From: Oscillospiraceae bacterium
Lineage (GTDB): Bacteria > Bacillota > Clostridia > Oscillospirales > CAG-272
Assembly: GCA_015065215.1 (NCBI GenBank)
Contig: SVQT01000003.1
Coordinates: 1 to 64,000 of the forward strand
DNA length: 64,000 bases
Direction of reading: 5' to 3'
Shown piece after piece: positions 12,274 to 22,266 of the stretch. Under the pieces are notes generated by a model that was given only the letters and a program-made list of their open reading frames with translations, ran no database searches and had not been told where the DNA came from. How positions within the stretch are numbered: the stretch's first letter is position 1; the number at the start of each line of letters is the position of its first letter. A program made the translations under genes and the position numbers.

Positions 12274-12408
12274 TTACAACGGTTTTTGCGGTAACACGAA
12301 GCGTTCGAAGCTGATAAGGAGGTCTTTATACATGCCTTCCACCTCGGTATGCAGATCGTCATAGCGGGAATGACAGAAAAAAGGATTTGTAGTCTTCTTG
12401 ATTTTCAT
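12274..12408 (-). CDS. Possible 44-aa small ORF
   Basis: MKIKKTTNPFFCHSRYDDLHTEVEGMYKDLLISFERFVLPQKPL*; below the ORF track length cutoff. Confidence 0.3.
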   Translation of the reverse strand: MKIKKTTNPFFCHSRYDDLHTEVEGMYKDLLISFERFVLPQKPL

Positions 12409-12432
12409 AAAATTTTGATTTTGAGGTATAAT
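12404..12432 (+). promoter_or_regulatory. Putative recombinase promoter
   Basis: TTCATA-N17-TATAAT upstream of SD aggagg and ATG 12458. Confidence 0.5.
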
Positions 12433-12457: not shown

Positions 12458-13297
12458 ATGAAAACGATTACGAACAGTGACATTACAAGATTTGAGCGAT
12501 ATTTGTGGGAGGAGGAGCGTTCTGCCGCTACGCTAGACAAGTACTTGCGCGACGTGAATATGTTTCATAAGTGGCTGAACGGGCGTAGTTTTGATAAAGA
12601 ATCGGTCTTGAAATACAAGGCGGAGCTGTTGGAAAATTATGCGGTGGCAAGTGTTAATTCCATGCTATCCTCGCTCAATAGCTTTTTCGCGTTTTTGGAA
12701 TGGCACGAGCTGCGTGTGAAAACCGTTAAAGTGCAGCGACAGATCTTTGCGTCACGCGATAAGGAGCTGACGAAAGCAGAATATGAACGCTTGCTTTTGG
12801 CGGCGAAGGAAAAAGGGAATGAACGTTTGTGGTTATTGATGCAGACGATCTGTTCAGCAGGTATCCGCGTGTCGGAACTGCGGCACATCACGGTGGAGGC
12901 AGTGTGGTGCGGGCGTGCGGAAATCACTTGTAAAGGCAAACGTAGAATGGTATTTTTGCCAAATCAGCTTTGTCAAATGCTAATGCGGTATATAAAGGCC
13001 GAAAAAATAAAAAGCGGCTCCGTTTTTATTACTAAAAACGGGAAGCCGCTGGATCGCTCAAACATTTGGTCGGATATGAAAAAGTTATGTAAGGCGGCAA
13101 ACGTGTCGAGAAACAAGGTGTTTCCTCATAATCTTCGTCATCTTTTTGCTCGCACTTATTACAGTTTGCAAAAGGACATCGTACGTCTTGCCGATATTCT
13201 CGGACACAGTAGCGTGAACACGACCCGTATCTACACGATGGAAAGCGGTGAAATTCACCGCCGCCAGATTCAAAAGCTCGGACTTTTGCGATGTTAA
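12458..13297 (+). CDS. Tyrosine recombinase / phage integrase family
   Basis: N-terminal SAM-like core-binding region; catalytic motifs SAGIRVSELRH, HNLRHLFA, LGHSSVNTTRIYT. Confidence 0.93.
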   Translation: MKTITNSDITRFERYLWEEERSAATLDKYLRDVNMFHKWLNGRSFDKESVLKYKAELLENYAVASVNSMLSSLNSFFAFLEWHELRVKTVKVQRQIFASRDKELTKAEYERLLLAAKEKGNERLWLLMQTICSAGIRVSELRHITVEAVWCGRAEITCKGKRRMVFLPNQLCQMLMRYIKAEKIKSGSVFITKNGKPLDRSNIWSDMKKLCKAANVSRNKVFPHNLRHLFARTYYSLQKDIVRLADILGHSSVNTTRIYTMESGEIHRRQIQKLGLLRC

Positions 13298-13321
13298 CAA
13301 CATAATTTTGATTATGTGGTT
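13296..13321 (+). repeat. Inverted repeat IR-L of putative invertible promoter
   Basis: aacaacataattttgattatgtggtt; reverse complement of IR-R with 25/26 identity; overlaps the recombinase stop codon. Confidence 0.9.
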
Positions 13322-13343
13322 AATAGGACAAATTTCATTACAT

Positions 13344-13372
13344 ATTATAGCACGCACGACAAAATTTGTCAA
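13344..13372 (-). promoter_or_regulatory. Consensus sigma-A-type promoter on the minus strand inside the inverted-repeat-bounded segment
   Basis: Minus strand TTGACA (13372-13367), 17-nt spacer ending TGC (extended -10), TATAAT (13349-13344). Confidence 0.88.
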
Positions 13373-13444
13373 CTATATTCTCTTGAAATTCACAATCCGG
13401 AGAAAAAATCAACACGGTGATAGATATTCATAATTGATTCTTTT

Positions 13445-13471
13445 GGCGTATCATTGGGTGTACGCCTTTTT
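13445..13471 (+). terminator. Putative rho-independent terminator inside the invertible segment
   Basis: GGCGTA tcattgggtg TACGCC TTTTT. Confidence 0.55.
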
Positions 13472-13484
13472 GAGCTTCTGCAAG

Positions 13485-13510
13485 AACCACATAATCAAAA
13501 TTATGTGGTT
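13485..13510 (-). repeat. Inverted repeat IR-R of putative invertible promoter
   Basis: aaccacataatcaaaattatgtggtt; also internally palindromic (caagaaccacataat caaa attatgtggttcttg, 13481-13514). Confidence 0.9.
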
Positions 13511-13527
13511 CTTGAAAGGAGCAGAAA

Positions 13528-16500
13528 ATGAAAAACACGAGTAAATTGACAGCAGTTCTTTTGTGTCTTATACTTTGCATGATCGGCGTTTTTGCGTTTT
13601 CTGCCTGTAGTCCCGAGCAAGTAGATTTCAGCTTGGGCTTTGAGGCAGAGGGCGAGAAATATGCTACGATTACAACATCAGGGACAGAAGCCATTACAAT
13701 GCCCGAGGATCCGTCGAAGGAGGGCTACACCTTTGACGGTTGGTTCTGGGACAAGGATACTTGGGCAAAGCCCTTTACGGCAAATTCTTTGTTGGATGCT
13801 CCGCTATCCAGTGATATGATGGTATATGCAAAGTTCACACCTGTGAATTATACCATTACATATCACGTGGACGCAGGGACACATGAAAATACCGCGGCAT
13901 ATACCGTTGAGGATGCCGTGGCGCTTTTGGATGCAACAAAAGAGGGATACACCTTCCTTGGTTGGTATTCGGACGATGAATTTACCGTCAAAGTGACCGA
14001 GATCCCCGAGGGAACAACGGGAGATATGTCGCTTTATGCGAAATTTGAAGTAACAGCATATGCCATTGCCTACGAGAACACCAAAGGTGCGGAAAACAGC
14101 AATCCCGCAACCTATACCATTGAGAGCGAGACGATTATCCTGGCCGCGCTGTCCAAGCCCGGCTATACCTTTGAGGGCTGGTTTATCGGCGACGATGAAG
14201 TCACCGAAATTGCCGCCGGCAGCACAGGGAATATTACGCTCACCGCCAAGTGGACGTTGAACGGTTATCCCATCACTTATCACAATATGACGGGTGCCAC
14301 CAACACGAATCCCGATGCTTACGACGTGGAGGATCAGCCCCTCACGATTATGGATGCAAGCAAAACGGGCTATCGTTTCCTTGGCTGGTTTACGGCCAAT
14401 GAGGGCGGCGAGCCGGTTACGGCTATTGCTGTTGGTACAACGGGCGAAGTCAATTTGTATGCCCGTTGGGAGCTGATCACCTATACCGCCACCTTTAAAG
14501 CGGACGGCCAAACTGTGCAGGAAGTACCGTTTACGGTAGAAACCGTGGGCATTACGGCTCCCGGTGTTCCCGGCAAGACGGGGTACAGCGGCGTATGGGA
14601 GAACTATACCCTGATTGCGGATAATATCACCGTGAACGCGGTATATATGCCCATTCCTTACACCGTCACCTACACCAATACCAAGGATGCGCCCAACGGC
14701 AACCCTGCCGAGTACAACATCGAAAGCGCAACGATCACGCTTGCGCCCATCGAAAAGGCGGGCTACGTCTTTGATGGCTGGCATCATAACGGCACCAAGG
14801 TGACCGAAATCGCCGCGGGCTCGCACGGCAATATCACATTAGAGGCAAGATGGTCGCTGATCTCCTACAACATCACTTACATGTTTGAGGATAGCATCGG
14901 CAAATATCCCGGCACGGAACGCAATCCTGCCACCTATACGGTAGAGGACAACATTACCTTCATCAGCCTTGTGAACCACGCCACGGGCTATACCTTTGAC
15001 GGTTGGTACACCGCAAAGAACGTGGGAGAGGGCGAGAAGGTCACCGGCATCACTGCCGGCACCACCGATCCTATCACCGTTTACGCGCATTGGACGTTGG
15101 ATACCTATACCGTTACTTATCATAACACCAAGGGTGCCACCAACACCAATGCCACCACCTTTAACGTGGAGACCGCAACCTTTGAGATCGTCAATCTCGC
15201 TCTTACCGGTTACACCTTTGACGGTTGGTATACGAACGAGGGCCTGACCGTTGCCGCAAACACCACCGTGGAGAAGGGCACCACCGAGAGCCTGCATTTC
15301 TACGCCAAGTGGACGCCTATCGCATACAGTATTGATTATGTGCTGTACAACGGTACCTATACGGGAGAGGGTAACCCCGACAGCTATACCATCGAGAATG
15401 GCTTTACCTTCGTCGAGCCCACCCTTGAAGGATACGTGTTCGGCGGTTGGTACACCGCGGCCGAGGGCGGCACCAAGGTTACCGGCATCGTCGAGGGCAC
15501 CACGGGTAACAAAACCTACTACGCCCGTTGGATCCACATCTCCACCATCACCTTCTACACCAACGGCGGTAGCGCTGTGACAAGCATGACCCACCCCGCC
15601 GGTACGGTTATTACCGCGCCTGTGGCACCCGCCAAGGACTATTACACCTTTGCGGGCTGGTACACCAATGCGGCGCTGACAGACGCCTTTACCTTTACCG
15701 TGATGCCCGAGGAGAATATCACACTCTACGCCAAGTGGACTCCCACGCCCTACACGATTACCTACGTGTTGAACGGCGGTGAAAATCATGCCGAAAACGT
15801 GACCACCTATACCGTGGAGGATTCTGTCGTCATCGGCGATGCCTTCAAGGTGGGCTATCGCTTCGTTGGCTGGTTCACCGACGCAGAGTTCACCTCCGCC
15901 GTGGTCACCGAGATAGCCGCAGGCAATCACGGCCCCATCACGCTGTACGCAAACTATGCCATCAATCAGTATACCGTCAGCTTTGAAAGCAACGGCGGTA
16001 CTACGATTTCGGACATCACCCAAAATTACGCCACCGAGGTGACTGCCCCCGCCGCTCCCGCCAAAAACGGCTACCGCTTTGTGGGCTGGTATAGCGACAG
16101 CACGCTGAAAAACGCTTACACCTTCACCACGATGCCGGCTGAGGATATTACGCTCTATGCCAAGTGGGAGCTTGCCACCTATAACATTACGTATCACCTG
16201 AACGGCGGTACGAACGCCGCGGCCAACAAGGATACCTACACCATTACCTCCACTCCCGTTGCACTGGCCAACCCCTCCAAGGCGGGCTACACCTTCGGCG
16301 GATGGTACAGCAACAGCAATTACAGCACCCCCGTTACCGAGATCGCCGCAGGTAGCTACGGTGACGTAGAGGTCTTTGCCAAGTGGGATGTCATCACCTA
16401 CACCGTGACCTATCACGCCCCCAACGGCACCATCCACACCAATATCGCCACCTATACCGTGGAGACTGCCACGCACACCCTCACCGATGCAAGCTTGAAA

Positions 16501-19500
16501 GGGCACACCTTCGGTGGCTGGTATACAAGCGACGGCTATACGACCGCGGTAACGACGATCGCAGGCGGCAAGCTTGACAATATCGATCTTTACGCCAAGT
16601 TCACCGCAAACACCTATAACGTCTGGATGGACGGCAACGAGGCCGCCAGCGTCACGGTCAGCTTTGACCTCAACGGTGCCGAGGGTAGCGTTACCCCCCA
16701 AACGGTAACAGAAAACACCACCTTGACCTACCCCATCGTACCCACCCGCGCAGGATTTGTGTTCGGCGGTTGGTATGAGAGCGCCACTTGCAGCGGCACC
16801 CCCTTTGATTTCTCCGCACAGCTCTATCATGATGTAACTCTTTACGCCAAGTGGGTCGCCCTGGAAAATGTCACCGCCATCACCGTAGGCAGTACGGCAA
16901 GCGTGACTCTGAACGGCTCCGCCGAGCTGAAATACATGTTCATTCCGCTTGTCAGCGGCAACGTGACCATCACCACCACGGGTAGCTATGATACCTACGG
17001 CGCTCTGTATAGCGCCAACGGCACGCTGCTGCGCCGTGACGACGACACCGGCAGCGGTGATAACTTCCAGATCGTTTATAACGTGACCGCAGGCGAGGCC
17101 TATTATATCGGCGTGCGCGGATACAGCTCCTCTGTCACCGGAACTGTAACTCTTTCGGTCAATGGCAGCACAACGGTTGCCGCAGGCGGCTTTGTGAGAA
17201 GCGCCAACCGCGTGGAGGTCACCTTTGGCAAGGGCTTCACCCTCACCGTGCCCGCCGCACGCGATGGCTATAAGTTCCTTGGCTGGATGGATGCAGACGG
17301 CGTGCTTTACACCGACGCAAGCGGCGCGAGCGTCAAGAACTGGGACAAGGATGCCCACACCACGCTTGTTTCCAAATGGGAGCGCACCGTCTATACCATC
17401 ACCTTCTACGATGCCGACGGCACCACCAAGCTCTTTAGTGCCGAGTACGCCTTTGGCGAGCGCATCGACATGGCGGGCCACACCCCCACCAAGGCGGGCA
17501 AGAGCTTTCTTGGCTGGAAGCTGTCTGCCTCGGATAGCACCTACTACAACGCCACCACCATGCCCGACGAGAACGTGGAGCTCTACGCCCACTGGACTAA
17601 CTTCGGCCTTGGCACGGTGAAATATGATACCGATAAGACCGCCATCAGTGTCAGTGACGTGATCAGCCCCGCGCTGTTCGGCGTGATCTGCCTGGATACC
17701 GACGGCAACCTGGCCACCGTAGAGCTGGACGGCGCCGTGGAGGGCAGCTTTACCGCAGGCGGCACCATCACCGTGTATTTCAAGATCACCGGCGGCAACG
17801 CCACCCCCAAGTCCCTTGTGATCGAGAACGTCAAGGTCTACGGCGCGCCCACGCTTACGGTAAATAATCAATCGAATTACGCCAATATCCCCAGCGGCCT
17901 CACCGCCGCCCACTTCGGCGCATCGGGCAAGGATAGCTTTGGCAACCCTGCCACCATCGTGGTGCGTATCGAGGGCGAATACAAGGCGGGAGACACCGTT
18001 ACCGTTATTATCGAATCGGTTGACCCCGCAGGCAACGTCACCGCCGCCACCGTGGAGAACGTGAAGCTCTACGGCGCGCCTATTATAAGCTATAATGAAG
18101 AAAAGACCGCCATCAGCACGGCAGACACGCTGAGCGCCGCCCTGTTTGGCGCCACCGCAACCGATAGCTTTGGCGAGCCCCTCACCGTCACCGCAAGCCG
18201 TTACAGCGGCACGATTGCGGCAGGGAATAGCGTGGTCATTCGCCTGACCGCCACCGACAGCAAGGGCAATACTACCACCGTGGACGTCACCTGTAAGGTC
18301 TATGGCGCACCCACGATTGGCAACGCCACCACCACCGATTTCAAGGTGAGCGATGCCATTACCCCCGAAGCAATGGGAATGACCGCACAAGACACCTATG
18401 GTGAGGCACTGCCTATCACCCTCACCGTCAAGGAGGGAACCCAGACCGCAGGCGCGACCGTGGTATTCACCGCCACCGTCACCGACGCGGCAGGGAACAC
18501 CGCCACAAGGGAGGTCACCGTCAAGATCTACGGTGCTCCCACTATTACCTATGACCGTGAGGCCATCAAGGCGGGTGAGGATGCCACCGCTGATGCAAGC
18601 GTGCTGAACGCCGTGGCCAAGGATAGCTTTGGCAAGAGCCTCACCGTAACCGTCACCCTCAAATCCGGCGATCCCAATGCCAAATGCACCTACGTGGTTT
18701 ATACCCTCACCGCCACCGACCACCTGGGCAATACCGCCAGCATCGACACGGCGGCATTGGGCGTGTATGACGCAAACGACATCACGCTGAACGTGTCGGC
18801 CACCGCCACCGATAAGATCAAGCTGACGAGTAAGGGCGAGGAGTTTGAACCCACCTCTCGCGACTCCTTCGGCAACCCCTGCATCCTGCGCATCCAGGCC
18901 GCCGAGGGCTTCACCCTTGCGGGCGGAAATACAGTGAGCCTCTACGTGGTGGCAACCGACCCCGCCGGCAACGAGAAGTATAGCCCCCTCATTGCCGAGA
19001 TCAAGGTCTACGCCACCCCCACCGTTACCCTCTCTCAGGACTACGTGGAGGAAAGCACCACCATCCGCCGTATCTTCACCGTCACCGACAGCTTCGGCGA
19101 GACCCTGTATCACAGCATCACCGTGGAGGGGGAACAGGTCAACGGAGAATTTATCACCGTTACTGTGACTGCTACCGATGCCGCCGGCAATACCGTGACG
19201 GTGACCTACCGCTTCCTGGTGGGACACCATCCTCATACCGAGGGCACCGAGTGGATTGTTGACGTGGCGCCCACTTGTACCGCCGAGGGCCTGCACCACA
19301 CGATATGCGTCGTTTGCGGTTGGGTGATGCCTGCGAAGAGTATACCCCCAATCGCACATAACTACGAGAGTGGCTGTTGCACTGAGTGTGGAGATAAGTA
19401 TATTGCCTACACTCGCGAAGATAACTATATTTATTTTGGCGAATATCCCCAGACGCTCAAGAAAAGTGATGTTAGCATCACAAGTATCACTGACAATCGC

Positions 19501-20211
19501 GGCTATTATTTGGGTAGTGACGGTTGTTATTATGCTAAGGTGGTAGCCGATCCATACGGTAGCTACTGCAAATTCTCCAACGGCAGCACGGTGATCGACG
19601 GAGCAGTATACTACTTCAAGGTGGAGGCTATCCGCTGGCGCATCCTTGACGAGGGCAACGGCACGGCGCTGATCCTGTGCGACAGCATCATTGCCAACCA
19701 TCGTTATGGCGACAGCTCCTGCAATTATGCCAATAGCGAGATCCGCGATTGGCTTAACAATCAGTTCTATGAGACCGCCTTCACTGAGTTGTTACAGAAG
19801 ATCATCCTTACCACTACGGTGGATAACAGCGAAGCAAGCACGGGCTATGTCCCCAACCCATATGCCTGCACCGACACCGAGGATAAGGTTTTTCTTCTCA
19901 GCTACAAGGAGGCCATTGACAGCGACTATGGCTTCTTATCGAGCGACAGCACTGACACTGTGCGTCGTATGCGAACCAGTGATTACAGCCGTGCCACGGG
20001 TGCATATATGTATCCGAACGCCGATTATTATGGCAACGGCATCTGGTGGCTTCGTTCGCTTGACTACAGTGGTTCCGGACGCGCACGCCATGTCAGCTAC
20101 GACGGCGATGTCGACGACGGTTACTCTTACGGCGTCAGTAGCCACTTCTATGTCGGCAAAATATACTATGGAATCGTCCCCGCTTTGCAAATTCAGCTTA
20201 TTCATGGGTGA
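13528..20211 (+). CDS. Giant repeat-rich lipoprotein: InlB-like B-repeats, PPC-like domain, Ig-like repeats, Cys/His module, DUF6273-like C-terminus
   Basis: 2227 aa; lipobox-like FAFSAC; >15 copies of GYTFDGWY...G.....LYAKW; repeated YGAPTI...DSFG.; C-term YIYFGEYPQ...WRIL...IRDWLNNQFYETAF...WWLRS...PALQIQL; SD gaaaggag. Confidence 0.92.
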   Translation: MKNTSKLTAVLLCLILCMIGVFAFSACSPEQVDFSLGFEAEGEKYATITTSGTEAITMPEDPSKEGYTFDGWFWDKDTWAKPFTANSLLDAPLSSDMMVYAKFTPVNYTITYHVDAGTHENTAAYTVEDAVALLDATKEGYTFLGWYSDDEFTVKVTEIPEGTTGDMSLYAKFEVTAYAIAYENTKGAENSNPATYTIESETIILAALSKPGYTFEGWFIGDDEVTEIAAGSTGNITLTAKWTLNGYPITYHNMTGATNTNPDAYDVEDQPLTIMDASKTGYRFLGWFTANEGGEPVTAIAVGTTGEVNLYARWELITYTATFKADGQTVQEVPFTVETVGITAPGVPGKTGYSGVWENYTLIADNITVNAVYMPIPYTVTYTNTKDAPNGNPAEYNIESATITLAPIEKAGYVFDGWHHNGTKVTEIAAGSHGNITLEARWSLISYNITYMFEDSIGKYPGTERNPATYTVEDNITFISLVNHATGYTFDGWYTAKNVGEGEKVTGITAGTTDPITVYAHWTLDTYTVTYHNTKGATNTNATTFNVETATFEIVNLALTGYTFDGWYTNEGLTVAANTTVEKGTTESLHFYAKWTPIAYSIDYVLYNGTYTGEGNPDSYTIENGFTFVEPTLEGYVFGGWYTAAEGGTKVTGIVEGTTGNKTYYARWIHISTITFYTNGGSAVTSMTHPAGTVITAPVAPAKDYYTFAGWYTNAALTDAFTFTVMPEENITLYAKWTPTPYTITYVLNGGENHAENVTTYTVEDSVVIGDAFKVGYRFVGWFTDAEFTSAVVTEIAAGNHGPITLYANYAINQYTVSFESNGGTTISDITQNYATEVTAPAAPAKNGYRFVGWYSDSTLKNAYTFTTMPAEDITLYAKWELATYNITYHLNGGTNAAANKDTYTITSTPVALANPSKAGYTFGGWYSNSNYSTPVTEIAAGSYGDVEVFAKWDVITYTVTYHAPNGTIHTNIATYTVETATHTLTDASLKGHTFGGWYTSDGYTTAVTTIAGGKLDNIDLYAKFTANTYNVWMDGNEAASVTVSFDLNGAEGSVTPQTVTENTTLTYPIVPTRAGFVFGGWYESATCSGTPFDFSAQLYHDVTLYAKWVALENVTAITVGSTASVTLNGSAELKYMFIPLVSGNVTITTTGSYDTYGALYSANGTLLRRDDDTGSGDNFQIVYNVTAGEAYYIGVRGYSSSVTGTVTLSVNGSTTVAAGGFVRSANRVEVTFGKGFTLTVPAARDGYKFLGWMDADGVLYTDASGASVKNWDKDAHTTLVSKWERTVYTITFYDADGTTKLFSAEYAFGERIDMAGHTPTKAGKSFLGWKLSASDSTYYNATTMPDENVELYAHWTNFGLGTVKYDTDKTAISVSDVISPALFGVICLDTDGNLATVELDGAVEGSFTAGGTITVYFKITGGNATPKSLVIENVKVYGAPTLTVNNQSNYANIPSGLTAAHFGASGKDSFGNPATIVVRIEGEYKAGDTVTVIIESVDPAGNVTAATVENVKLYGAPIISYNEEKTAISTADTLSAALFGATATDSFGEPLTVTASRYSGTIAAGNSVVIRLTATDSKGNTTTVDVTCKVYGAPTIGNATTTDFKVSDAITPEAMGMTAQDTYGEALPITLTVKEGTQTAGATVVFTATVTDAAGNTATREVTVKIYGAPTITYDREAIKAGEDATADASVLNAVAKDSFGKSLTVTVTLKSGDPNAKCTYVVYTLTATDHLGNTASIDTAALGVYDANDITLNVSATATDKIKLTSKGEEFEPTSRDSFGNPCILRIQAAEGFTLAGGNTVSLYVVATDPAGNEKYSPLIAEIKVYATPTVTLSQDYVEESTTIRRIFTVTDSFGETLYHSITVEGEQVNGEFITVTVTATDAAGNTVTVTYRFLVGHHPHTEGTEWIVDVAPTCTAEGLHHTICVVCGWVMPAKSIPPIAHNYESGCCTECGDKYIAYTREDNYIYFGEYPQTLKKSDVSITSITDNRGYYLGSDGCYYAKVVADPYGSYCKFSNGSTVIDGAVYYFKVEAIRWRILDEGNGTALILCDSIIANHRYGDSSCNYANSEIRDWLNNQFYETAFTELLQKIILTTTVDNSEASTGYVPNPYACTDTEDKVFLLSYKEAIDSDYGFLSSDSTDTVRRMRTSDYSRATGAYMYPNADYYGNGIWWLRSLDYSGSGRARHVSYDGDVDDGYSYGVSSHFYVGKIYYGIVPALQIQLIHG
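13660..16860 (+). repeat. ~18 InlB B-repeat (flg_new-like) coding repeats of ~200 bp
   Basis: Recurring codons for GYTFDGWYT...VTEIAAGTTGNITLYAKW at regular spacing. Confidence 0.85.
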
Positions 20212-20251
20212 TAGCCTAAATAAGAATATGCGAGACACAAATCAATATATC

Positions 20252-20278
20252 CCCAAGCGGAATCCTTCCGCTTGGGGC
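20252..20278. repeat. Hairpin between the giant gene and the acyltransferase gene
   Basis: ccccaagcggaa tcc ttccgcttgggg; no clear T-run, so termination uncertain. Confidence 0.5.
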
Positions 20279-20298: not shown

Positions 20299-22266
20299 AT
20301 GAAAAAAACGTTTTGTATAGATTGTAAGGAATATACATATAACGCAGATGAATATGAACGCTTGTACGAAGAACTTTTGAAGCGTATGGAATGGCTCTTT
20401 TCGCACGGCTATACTTTAGTTTCCATGGTTGCAGTCTTTTGGTCGATTACGCTTTCTGTTTTAGGTGCGTTTTTAAGCAGTGAACTTGCCTCCAACTCTC
20501 CTTTTACGTTTTTAATCCCTTTTTTGACCGTTCTTTTAGTAGGGGCACCGGCAATTTTTGTGTATCCTTTTTCTGTAAAATATCAAGATAATGTACGTAC
20601 GGTGGCAAGTCTTGGTGCATATTTTCGTGTTTTTTACGAATTGCCTTCCATATTAAAAAAGACTGGTTATGCGAAAAACAAAAACGGTGACATGGAACAC
20701 AAGGTTTTTGCTTGGGAGACTTTGCATTGCGATACGCATTATGAACGTACGGGTGGTTTTGGTGCAGAATATATCATTATTTCCTCTGCAGCGCTGGTGT
20801 TGTCATTGACTACCGGAATTGTCTCTATCATCGCATATAGTCAGTGTAGAATCTGGTTTATGCTTTTATTCCTTTTTTTCTGGGGAGGATTGGGTGTGGT
20901 TTCCTACAAGGTGTGGAAGAATTCCTGCACAAGAACAACGATAGATTACTATTTTGTTCGCTACCTTCACACCTATCTTGCAAAAGCAGTAAATCTTGAA
21001 TTGCTGACCTCGCAAGAATGTAAAATATACTTGAAATATACTAACACAGAGATTATGCAAGAGAAAGCAATGGATGGCGTAACAAAGGAATATAATTTTA
21101 GGATTTTACACATGATCTCTGTAATCGAAACTCTGTTACAAAATGAAGATTATACGGAAATCAAAAAGATGCTTTGTGGTTTGCGTTTTGACAAAAATGA
21201 TAAAGCATATTGCAAGCTTTTGACAATATCCAAACAATATTGTGCCGAGTATTCTAAACTTTGCGCTATTCCAAACGAGAGATTAACCGATAAAGAAAGA
21301 GAGCGCAAAGAAGAACTTTTAGATGTTTTGTTCCCAGGTCACGGCACACTTTACGGTATTGGCGCAGGCATTGAAGTTGTGATTGGTATGGTAGAATTAG
21401 GCGACAATTGCTACATCAATGCCAATGTTAAGTTTAACCCTGATGTTAAGGTGAAAACAGGTGATTATTTTATTTGTGCTCCTAACGTTACCTTCGGTAG
21501 TGATGAATCCTTTGATAAGGTAGGACAGATCGAAATTGGTGACGATGTATGGGTTTGTGCTGACGTAACCGTGCAAAAGGGGGTCAAAATTGGCAGTCGT
21601 TCTGTGATTGGACTGAGTTCCGTAGTTAAGACGGAATCCGCCTTGGGCGATGACAGCATTTATTCGGGTGCCCCTGCCGTAGTCGCTTCGGCCATTGAAA
21701 ATCGCGGCGTTGCAGCATGTAAAAGCGAATGTACAGAGCCATCTGATGACTATGAAAAGGCATTTGTTGCGCATTTGCGCAGCTTGGGCTTTGAAGGTGA
21801 TTTTTCACAGCTATTGTATTTACTTCGTGGCGAGAAATACAACGCCCAAGACCCGCTTGCGGCAGCAGTGACGGACTACACACATGCACTGTACGCTGAA
21901 TACGCTACAGCCGACAAAAAGCGAAGAGCCGAGCTGAAAAATATACTGTTTCCATTTAAGGGAGAAAATTGTACTATAGGTGAAAACGTGTTTGTGGAGT
22001 GCATCGGCAGTGTACGCTTGGGCGGTAGTGTAACGGTTGGTAATTGTGTTACTCTGATGGGTAGCATCGTTCTGGGCGACCGTTGCACCATTGAGGAAAA
22101 AGTTTCTTTGGTTGGCATCGGTCATGAGGTATATCATGAAAACAGGCACGTATGTGACGGATGTATGATCAACACCAGTCGCGTGATCCGGGTTGAGTCC
22201 GGTGTACACATTGGAAAGGGAAAAAAGCTGGCACCGAAAACGCCCATCGAGAAGGATCAAATCTAA
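20299..22266 (+). CDS. Membrane protein with two C-terminal left-handed beta-helix (hexapeptide) acyltransferase-like modules
   Basis: N-terminal TM helices, then two hexapeptide blocks (IEIGDDVWVCADVTVQKGVKIGSRSVIGLSSVV; VRLGGSVTVGNCVTLMGSIVLGDRCTIEEKV), each preceded by a KRRAELKNILFP-like segment. Confidence 0.75.
   Translation: MKKTFCIDCKEYTYNADEYERLYEELLKRMEWLFSHGYTLVSMVAVFWSITLSVLGAFLSSELASNSPFTFLIPFLTVLLVGAPAIFVYPFSVKYQDNVRTVASLGAYFRVFYELPSILKKTGYAKNKNGDMEHKVFAWETLHCDTHYERTGGFGAEYIIISSAALVLSLTTGIVSIIAYSQCRIWFMLLFLFFWGGLGVVSYKVWKNSCTRTTIDYYFVRYLHTYLAKAVNLELLTSQECKIYLKYTNTEIMQEKAMDGVTKEYNFRILHMISVIETLLQNEDYTEIKKMLCGLRFDKNDKAYCKLLTISKQYCAEYSKLCAIPNERLTDKERERKEELLDVLFPGHGTLYGIGAGIEVVIGMVELGDNCYINANVKFNPDVKVKTGDYFICAPNVTFGSDESFDKVGQIEIGDDVWVCADVTVQKGVKIGSRSVIGLSSVVKTESALGDDSIYSGAPAVVASAIENRGVAACKSECTEPSDDYEKAFVAHLRSLGFEGDFSQLLYLLRGEKYNAQDPLAAAVTDYTHALYAEYATADKKRRAELKNILFPFKGENCTIGENVFVECIGSVRLGGSVTVGNCVTLMGSIVLGDRCTIEEKVSLVGIGHEVYHENRHVCDGCMINTSRVIRVESGVHIGKGKKLAPKTPIEKDQI

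Follow-up and report, generated by a model that had tools for sequence, protein, structure and literature searches.

A probable invertible-promoter switch between a tyrosine recombinase gene and a 2227-residue lipoprotein gene, with the same layout at related loci in Clostridia

Invertible promoters with recombinases encoded close by are well known, and in Escherichia coli the tyrosine recombinase gene fimE lies directly upstream of the invertible element fimS, on the same strand. The fimS element is 314 bp long and carries the promoter of a surface-structure gene; it also holds a terminator that affects the fimE mRNA, and it is OFF-biased when FimE acts (PMC9993118). The invertible DNA at cwpV of C. 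difficile contains no promoter, control being exerted by a terminator, and recV is located elsewhere in the genome (PMC2784873). Mpi of Bacteroides is a serine recombinase that acts on at least 13 scattered regions (PMC5903667). A survey of reads from the hCom2 community tied inverton group 139 (Clostridia in 32 of 33 cases) to a tyrosine 'invertase group 35', placed a tyrosine recombinase near almost all members of the group, and detected read-level flipping in culture in Intestinimonas and in Clostridium sp. D5, whose element measures 257 bp and has 26-nt repeats (PMC11892184).

Here we describe a locus in a 64-kb stretch of DNA (the whole of which we call the window) from a metagenome-assembled genome of 2.14 Mb in 85 contigs that is 84.6% complete. 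From its sequence, we consider it very probable that this locus is a recombinase-adjacent invertible-promoter switch, that is, a phase-variation cassette, for a large lipoprotein, captured in the OFF orientation. Its features are as follows.

12404..12432, plus strand: TTCATA-17-TATAAT, putatively assigned by a consensus scan (10/12) as the recombinase gene's own promoter.
12458..13297, plus strand: tyrosine recombinase of 279 aa with a Phage_integrase domain (Pfam PF00589, 2.7e-27).
13296..13321, plus strand: left inverted repeat (IR-L) and candidate recombination site, spacer TTTG at 13307-13310, from its 25/26 complementarity to the right repeat and from the family consensus.
13344..13372, minus strand: predicted extended -10 promoter, TTGACA-17-TATAAT with TG, pointing away from the lipoprotein gene (OFF); 12/12 consensus match.
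13445..13466, plus strand: putative terminator-like hairpin within the element, followed by a T run, from a hairpin scan and RNA folding.
13485..13510, minus strand: right inverted repeat (IR-R) and candidate recombination site, spacer CAAA (TTTG inverted) at 13496-13499, from its pairing with IR-L and from the family consensus.
13514-13521, plus strand: Shine-Dalgarno sequence of the lipoprotein gene, GAAAGGAG.
13528..20211, plus strand: cargo gene for a 2227-aa lipoprotein with lipobox FSAC, 15 Listeria-Bacteroides (InlB-type) repeats and a C-terminal DUF6273, from domain searches.

The two arms are reverse complements at 25 of 26 positions, and we reproduced both this match and the coordinates given for it in the original prediction. 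They are separated by 163 nt and, arms included, make up an element of 215 bp. No other 26-nt pair in the 64-kb window has at least 25 matches at a spacing of 60-400 nt, and no such pair was seen when the full 64 kb was dinucleotide-shuffled 20 times. The recombinase stop codon (13295-13297) overlaps IR-L by its final two bases, and the two arms enclose an intergenic segment, as in promoter-type invertons. Each arm is itself a near-palindrome, ACATAAT-TTTG/CAAA-ATTATGT, with the TTTG/CAAA core that had been ascribed to it. A candidate third site at 12406-12427, 82% like IR-R and lying over the recombinase promoter, was considered as a means of autoregulation and dropped because the relatives have no counterpart there.

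As judged from its residues, an intact site-specific recombinase is encoded close by: R137, K159/K161, H224, R227, H250 and Y259 are all present in a PDB alignment to XerA/XerD, and among solved structures the nearest are those of XerA- and XerD-type enzymes. The protein does not score as a housekeeping XerC or XerD, reaching 132.7 against a cut-off of 329.6 for XerD and 116.6 against 335 for XerC. It is encoded in one copy in the genome, where the other homologues are two distant ones. The lipoprotein frame is uninterrupted over its 2227 codons. A gene for a hexapeptide-repeat protein (20299-22266 of the window) starts 88 nt 3' of the lipoprotein gene and is perhaps co-transcribed with it; a GC-rich hairpin that lacks a T run lies between the two (~20251-20276).

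The minus-strand hexamers inside the element are predicted to form a perfect extended -10 sigma-A promoter and, as had been claimed, they match the consensus at 12/12 positions (13372..13344), carry the TG motif and face away from the lipoprotein gene. After in-silico inversion of the segment between the cores, this promoter occupies 13434-13462 of the plus strand with a leader of ~59 nt ahead of the start codon (ATG at 13528), and from there it would, by its sequence, read into the gene. These values agree with the position and the ~60-nt leader that had been predicted for the inverted state, and the proposed Shine-Dalgarno sequence is found at 13514-13521. The hairpin at 13445-13466 (GGCGTA..TACGCC followed by T5) is absent from the original prediction; in the OFF state it would halt read-through from the recombinase gene into the lipoprotein gene. 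Masking of the Shine-Dalgarno sequence by an IR-R hairpin in an orientation-dependent manner was also considered, and folding gave no consistent difference.

We propose that the adjacent tyrosine recombinase would bind the two near-palindromic 26-nt sites and swap strands across their identical cores, flipping the ~190-bp segment. In the OFF orientation the strong promoter would fire backwards into the recombinase gene and the plus-strand terminator would stop read-through, so that the lipoprotein gene would be left without a promoter. After inversion (ON), the promoter would read into the lipoprotein gene through the ~59-nt leader. Presumably it is this recombinase that catalyses the flip, and in this organism, and the promoter and terminator are probably functional, such that the lipoprotein would be switched by them.

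Of the 197 genomes searched, 71, the genome of the window among them, encode homologues of the recombinase at E <= 1e-30. We assembled 82 loci with their flanks, namely the window, 80 loci from species-representative genomes and one IMG/VR contig. At 74 of the 82 the order is recombinase, inverted repeat, promoter, inverted repeat and cargo gene, counting those loci at which an inverted-repeat pair begins no more than 90 nt from the recombinase stop; the segments within the 74 repeat pairs span 165-379 bp. Across the relatives the sites conform to the consensus ACCACATAAT-NNNN-ATTATGTGGT, with a central 4-bp spacer that varies widely among loci. Within a locus, the two arms carry an identical spacer in inverted orientation at 70/70 loci when the arms are picked by pairing, and at 61 of 63 when the sites are picked by their outer dyad alone (2.6 expected with shuffled partners), an identity that fits site-specific recombination because strand exchange between two sites needs it. 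A promoter with a 12/12 match is present in 23 of the 74 elements (0 in shuffles), and one with at least 11/12 in 48 of them (1.6 in shuffles).

Several loci depart from the simple layout. Genome G153 (loci L119, L121-L124, L126 and L127) has 12 recombinase matches, several of them with a variant site, GACATTAT..ATAATGTC, and in this genome four near-identical cassettes, all OFF, stand ahead of pilin-like genes (GFTLVELIVVIAIL). The idea that locus-specific spacers act as a barcode separating the cassettes of one genome was not supported, as these four cassettes share one spacer and the SIG626 loci likewise share one. A third copy of the site, with the same spacer, lies 33-74 bp past the second at L073, L074, L076 and L093, the last of these in the cultured Neglectibacter timonensis, and two alternative inversions would therefore be possible there. 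The single element at L083 contains several sites together with a pair of promoters that oppose each other, with an apparent duplication of the switch end.

In 29 of the 74 elements, against 0.05 expected, we found a central stem-loop, RCCAATG..CATTGGY as read in the OFF frame. Its loop length varies, its arms show paired changes between loci (ACTAATG..CATTAGT at L069, ACCGATG..CATCGGT at L052), and T-rich sequence often follows; the window element carries its GGCGTA..TACGCC hairpin in place of this motif. The stem-loop is best read as a putative intrinsic terminator that would shield the cargo from recombinase transcripts. We note that this mid-element hairpin, for example at L049, L053 and L112, is more conserved in sequence than a plain terminator requires. 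Together with the hairpin that the window element presents on the plus strand in the OFF orientation, the frequency of this stem-loop would be consistent with a switch of the cwpV kind, in which transcription comes from a promoter outside the element, for example by read-through from the recombinase gene, and inversion merely moves a terminator in and out of its path. We regard such an arrangement as improbable: most elements contain a consensus promoter that turns along with them, and the mid-element hairpin found in the relatives has a rough symmetry and would therefore often terminate in either orientation. A promoter layer and a terminator layer may coexist.

Comparison of related genomes, which had been suggested as a check, uncovered whole interiors that are inverted between close relatives. 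The interior at L037 (ON, with the promoter directed towards the cargo) is reversed between kept flanks relative to those at L038, L040 and L043 (OFF), with 78-83% identity over 174-183 nt of interior and recombinase genes that are 88-92% identical. Opposite interiors also distinguish L057 from L046, L050 and L114, and L098 from L103 and L100. Both orientations exist, then, among related species and paralogous loci. When labels are assigned by promoter matching, the assemblies comprise 63 OFF and 10 ON (44 and 8 when clear calls alone are counted), a surplus that suggests that OFF cells usually predominate, although this is a tally of assemblies rather than a measure taken within a population. 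The ON loci are dispersed on the recombinase tree, where as many as 8 ON labels imply no fewer than 7 changes, and orientation therefore shifts on a short evolutionary time scale. Contig breaks at the inverted repeats were considered as a signal of mixed orientation and discarded, breaks upstream of the recombinase gene looking equally common.

That the window assembly presents OFF alone, and that OFF prevails in the family tally, could also mean that a once-invertible element is now locked, with a silent gene and an inactive recombinase. This too strikes us as quite unlikely, given that the recombinase frame is open with every catalytic residue kept, that the arms still match at 25/26 with identical cores, and that the 2227-aa lipoprotein frame is intact, which is not expected of a permanently silent gene. 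Least credible by far is that no inversion ever takes place and the repeats serve simply as stem-loop terminators or as dyads bound by proteins: each arm is a near-palindrome that can fold as RNA, but relatives hold opposite orientations, the identity of the inverted spacers within loci despite their variation between loci is hard to explain without recombination, and the elements keep a constant position beside the recombinase gene. The layout at 74 of 82 loci, the inverted relatives and the spacer identity within loci instead uphold the reading of the original prediction, an invertible-promoter switch captured OFF.

Where that prediction was imprecise was in its precedents, RecV/cwpV and Mpi having been cited as recombinase-adjacent invertible promoters. 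RecV/cwpV resembles the window locus in its Clostridia host, its tyrosine recombinase and an inversion of ~200 bp ahead of a large surface-protein gene, but the cwpV DNA is promoterless and recV is distant (PMC2784873); at the window locus the element carries a predicted promoter and the recombinase gene is adjacent. Mpi likewise governs surface molecules by promoter inversion. It is, however, a serine recombinase with at least 13 scattered target regions (PMC5903667), whereas the window has a tyrosine recombinase and its genome, 84.6% complete, has one exact site pair in place of many scattered sites. The fimE-fimS-fimA arrangement shares with the window locus an upstream recombinase gene and an element holding a promoter (predicted at the window) and a terminator (putative there), its OFF bias matches that of the family's assemblies, and by this analogy of organization it is a better functional analogue than cwpV or Mpi. 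It differs in having two recombinases, and the window recombinase lacks close sequence kinship with them, its 24.5 bits falling far short of the 221-bit threshold of NCBIfam NF007370, the model of tyrosine-type DNA invertases (Fim recombinases). Inverton group 139 is probably the same family as the window cassette, a likening by host, recombinase neighbour and element size: both occur in Clostridia and have a tyrosine recombinase as neighbour, the arms are 26 nt long at the window as in Clostridium sp. D5, and the elements are similar in length (~255 bp in group 139, 215 bp in the window, 165-379 bp in its family). The element type is spread over many gut Clostridia yet largely undescribed.

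The annotated cargo consists mostly of surface proteins. In a set of 65 proteins encoded downstream, BspA-type leucine-rich repeats and cohesin domains were the most frequent (11 each), followed by Listeria-Bacteroides repeats (8) and collagen repeats (6); small numbers of TetR regulators, SPFH proteins and other types are also present. Cargo and recombinase evolve separately, as seen at L037 and L117, whose cargo proteins are 92% alike and whose recombinases are 72% alike, and the cassette can therefore be recruited ahead of different genes. L117 (35-10441), on the IMG/VR contig, carries the same cassette directly behind phage tail genes, with a cargo SPFH/zinc-ribbon protein that is 92% identical to that of L037; this switch may ride on a prophage. 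At L113 and L115 the gene behind the element resembles a second tyrosine recombinase, and one switch may there control another recombinase.

In the OFF orientation, unless a terminator intervenes, antisense transcription from the promoter would have to extend over the 3' part of the recombinase gene. Such transcription could damp recombinase production and keep the switch OFF, and in the ON orientation the brake would be released and the recombinase would drive the element back to OFF; feedback of this kind would account for the ~6:1 OFF bias of the assemblies. We offer only tentatively, as a rather doubtful extension, the view that the cassette is a portable module across many Clostridia with built-in feedback and cargo swapping, a general plug-in switch.

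The layout of one recombinase and an invertible promoter recurs across many uncultured gut Clostridia, mostly before surface or adhesion-type genes, and single assemblies therefore understate the repertoire that can be expressed. Testable predictions on the specificity and stability of the switch follow from the site rule, in which the arms are fixed and a locus-specific spacer is shared by both arms, and from the OFF bias.
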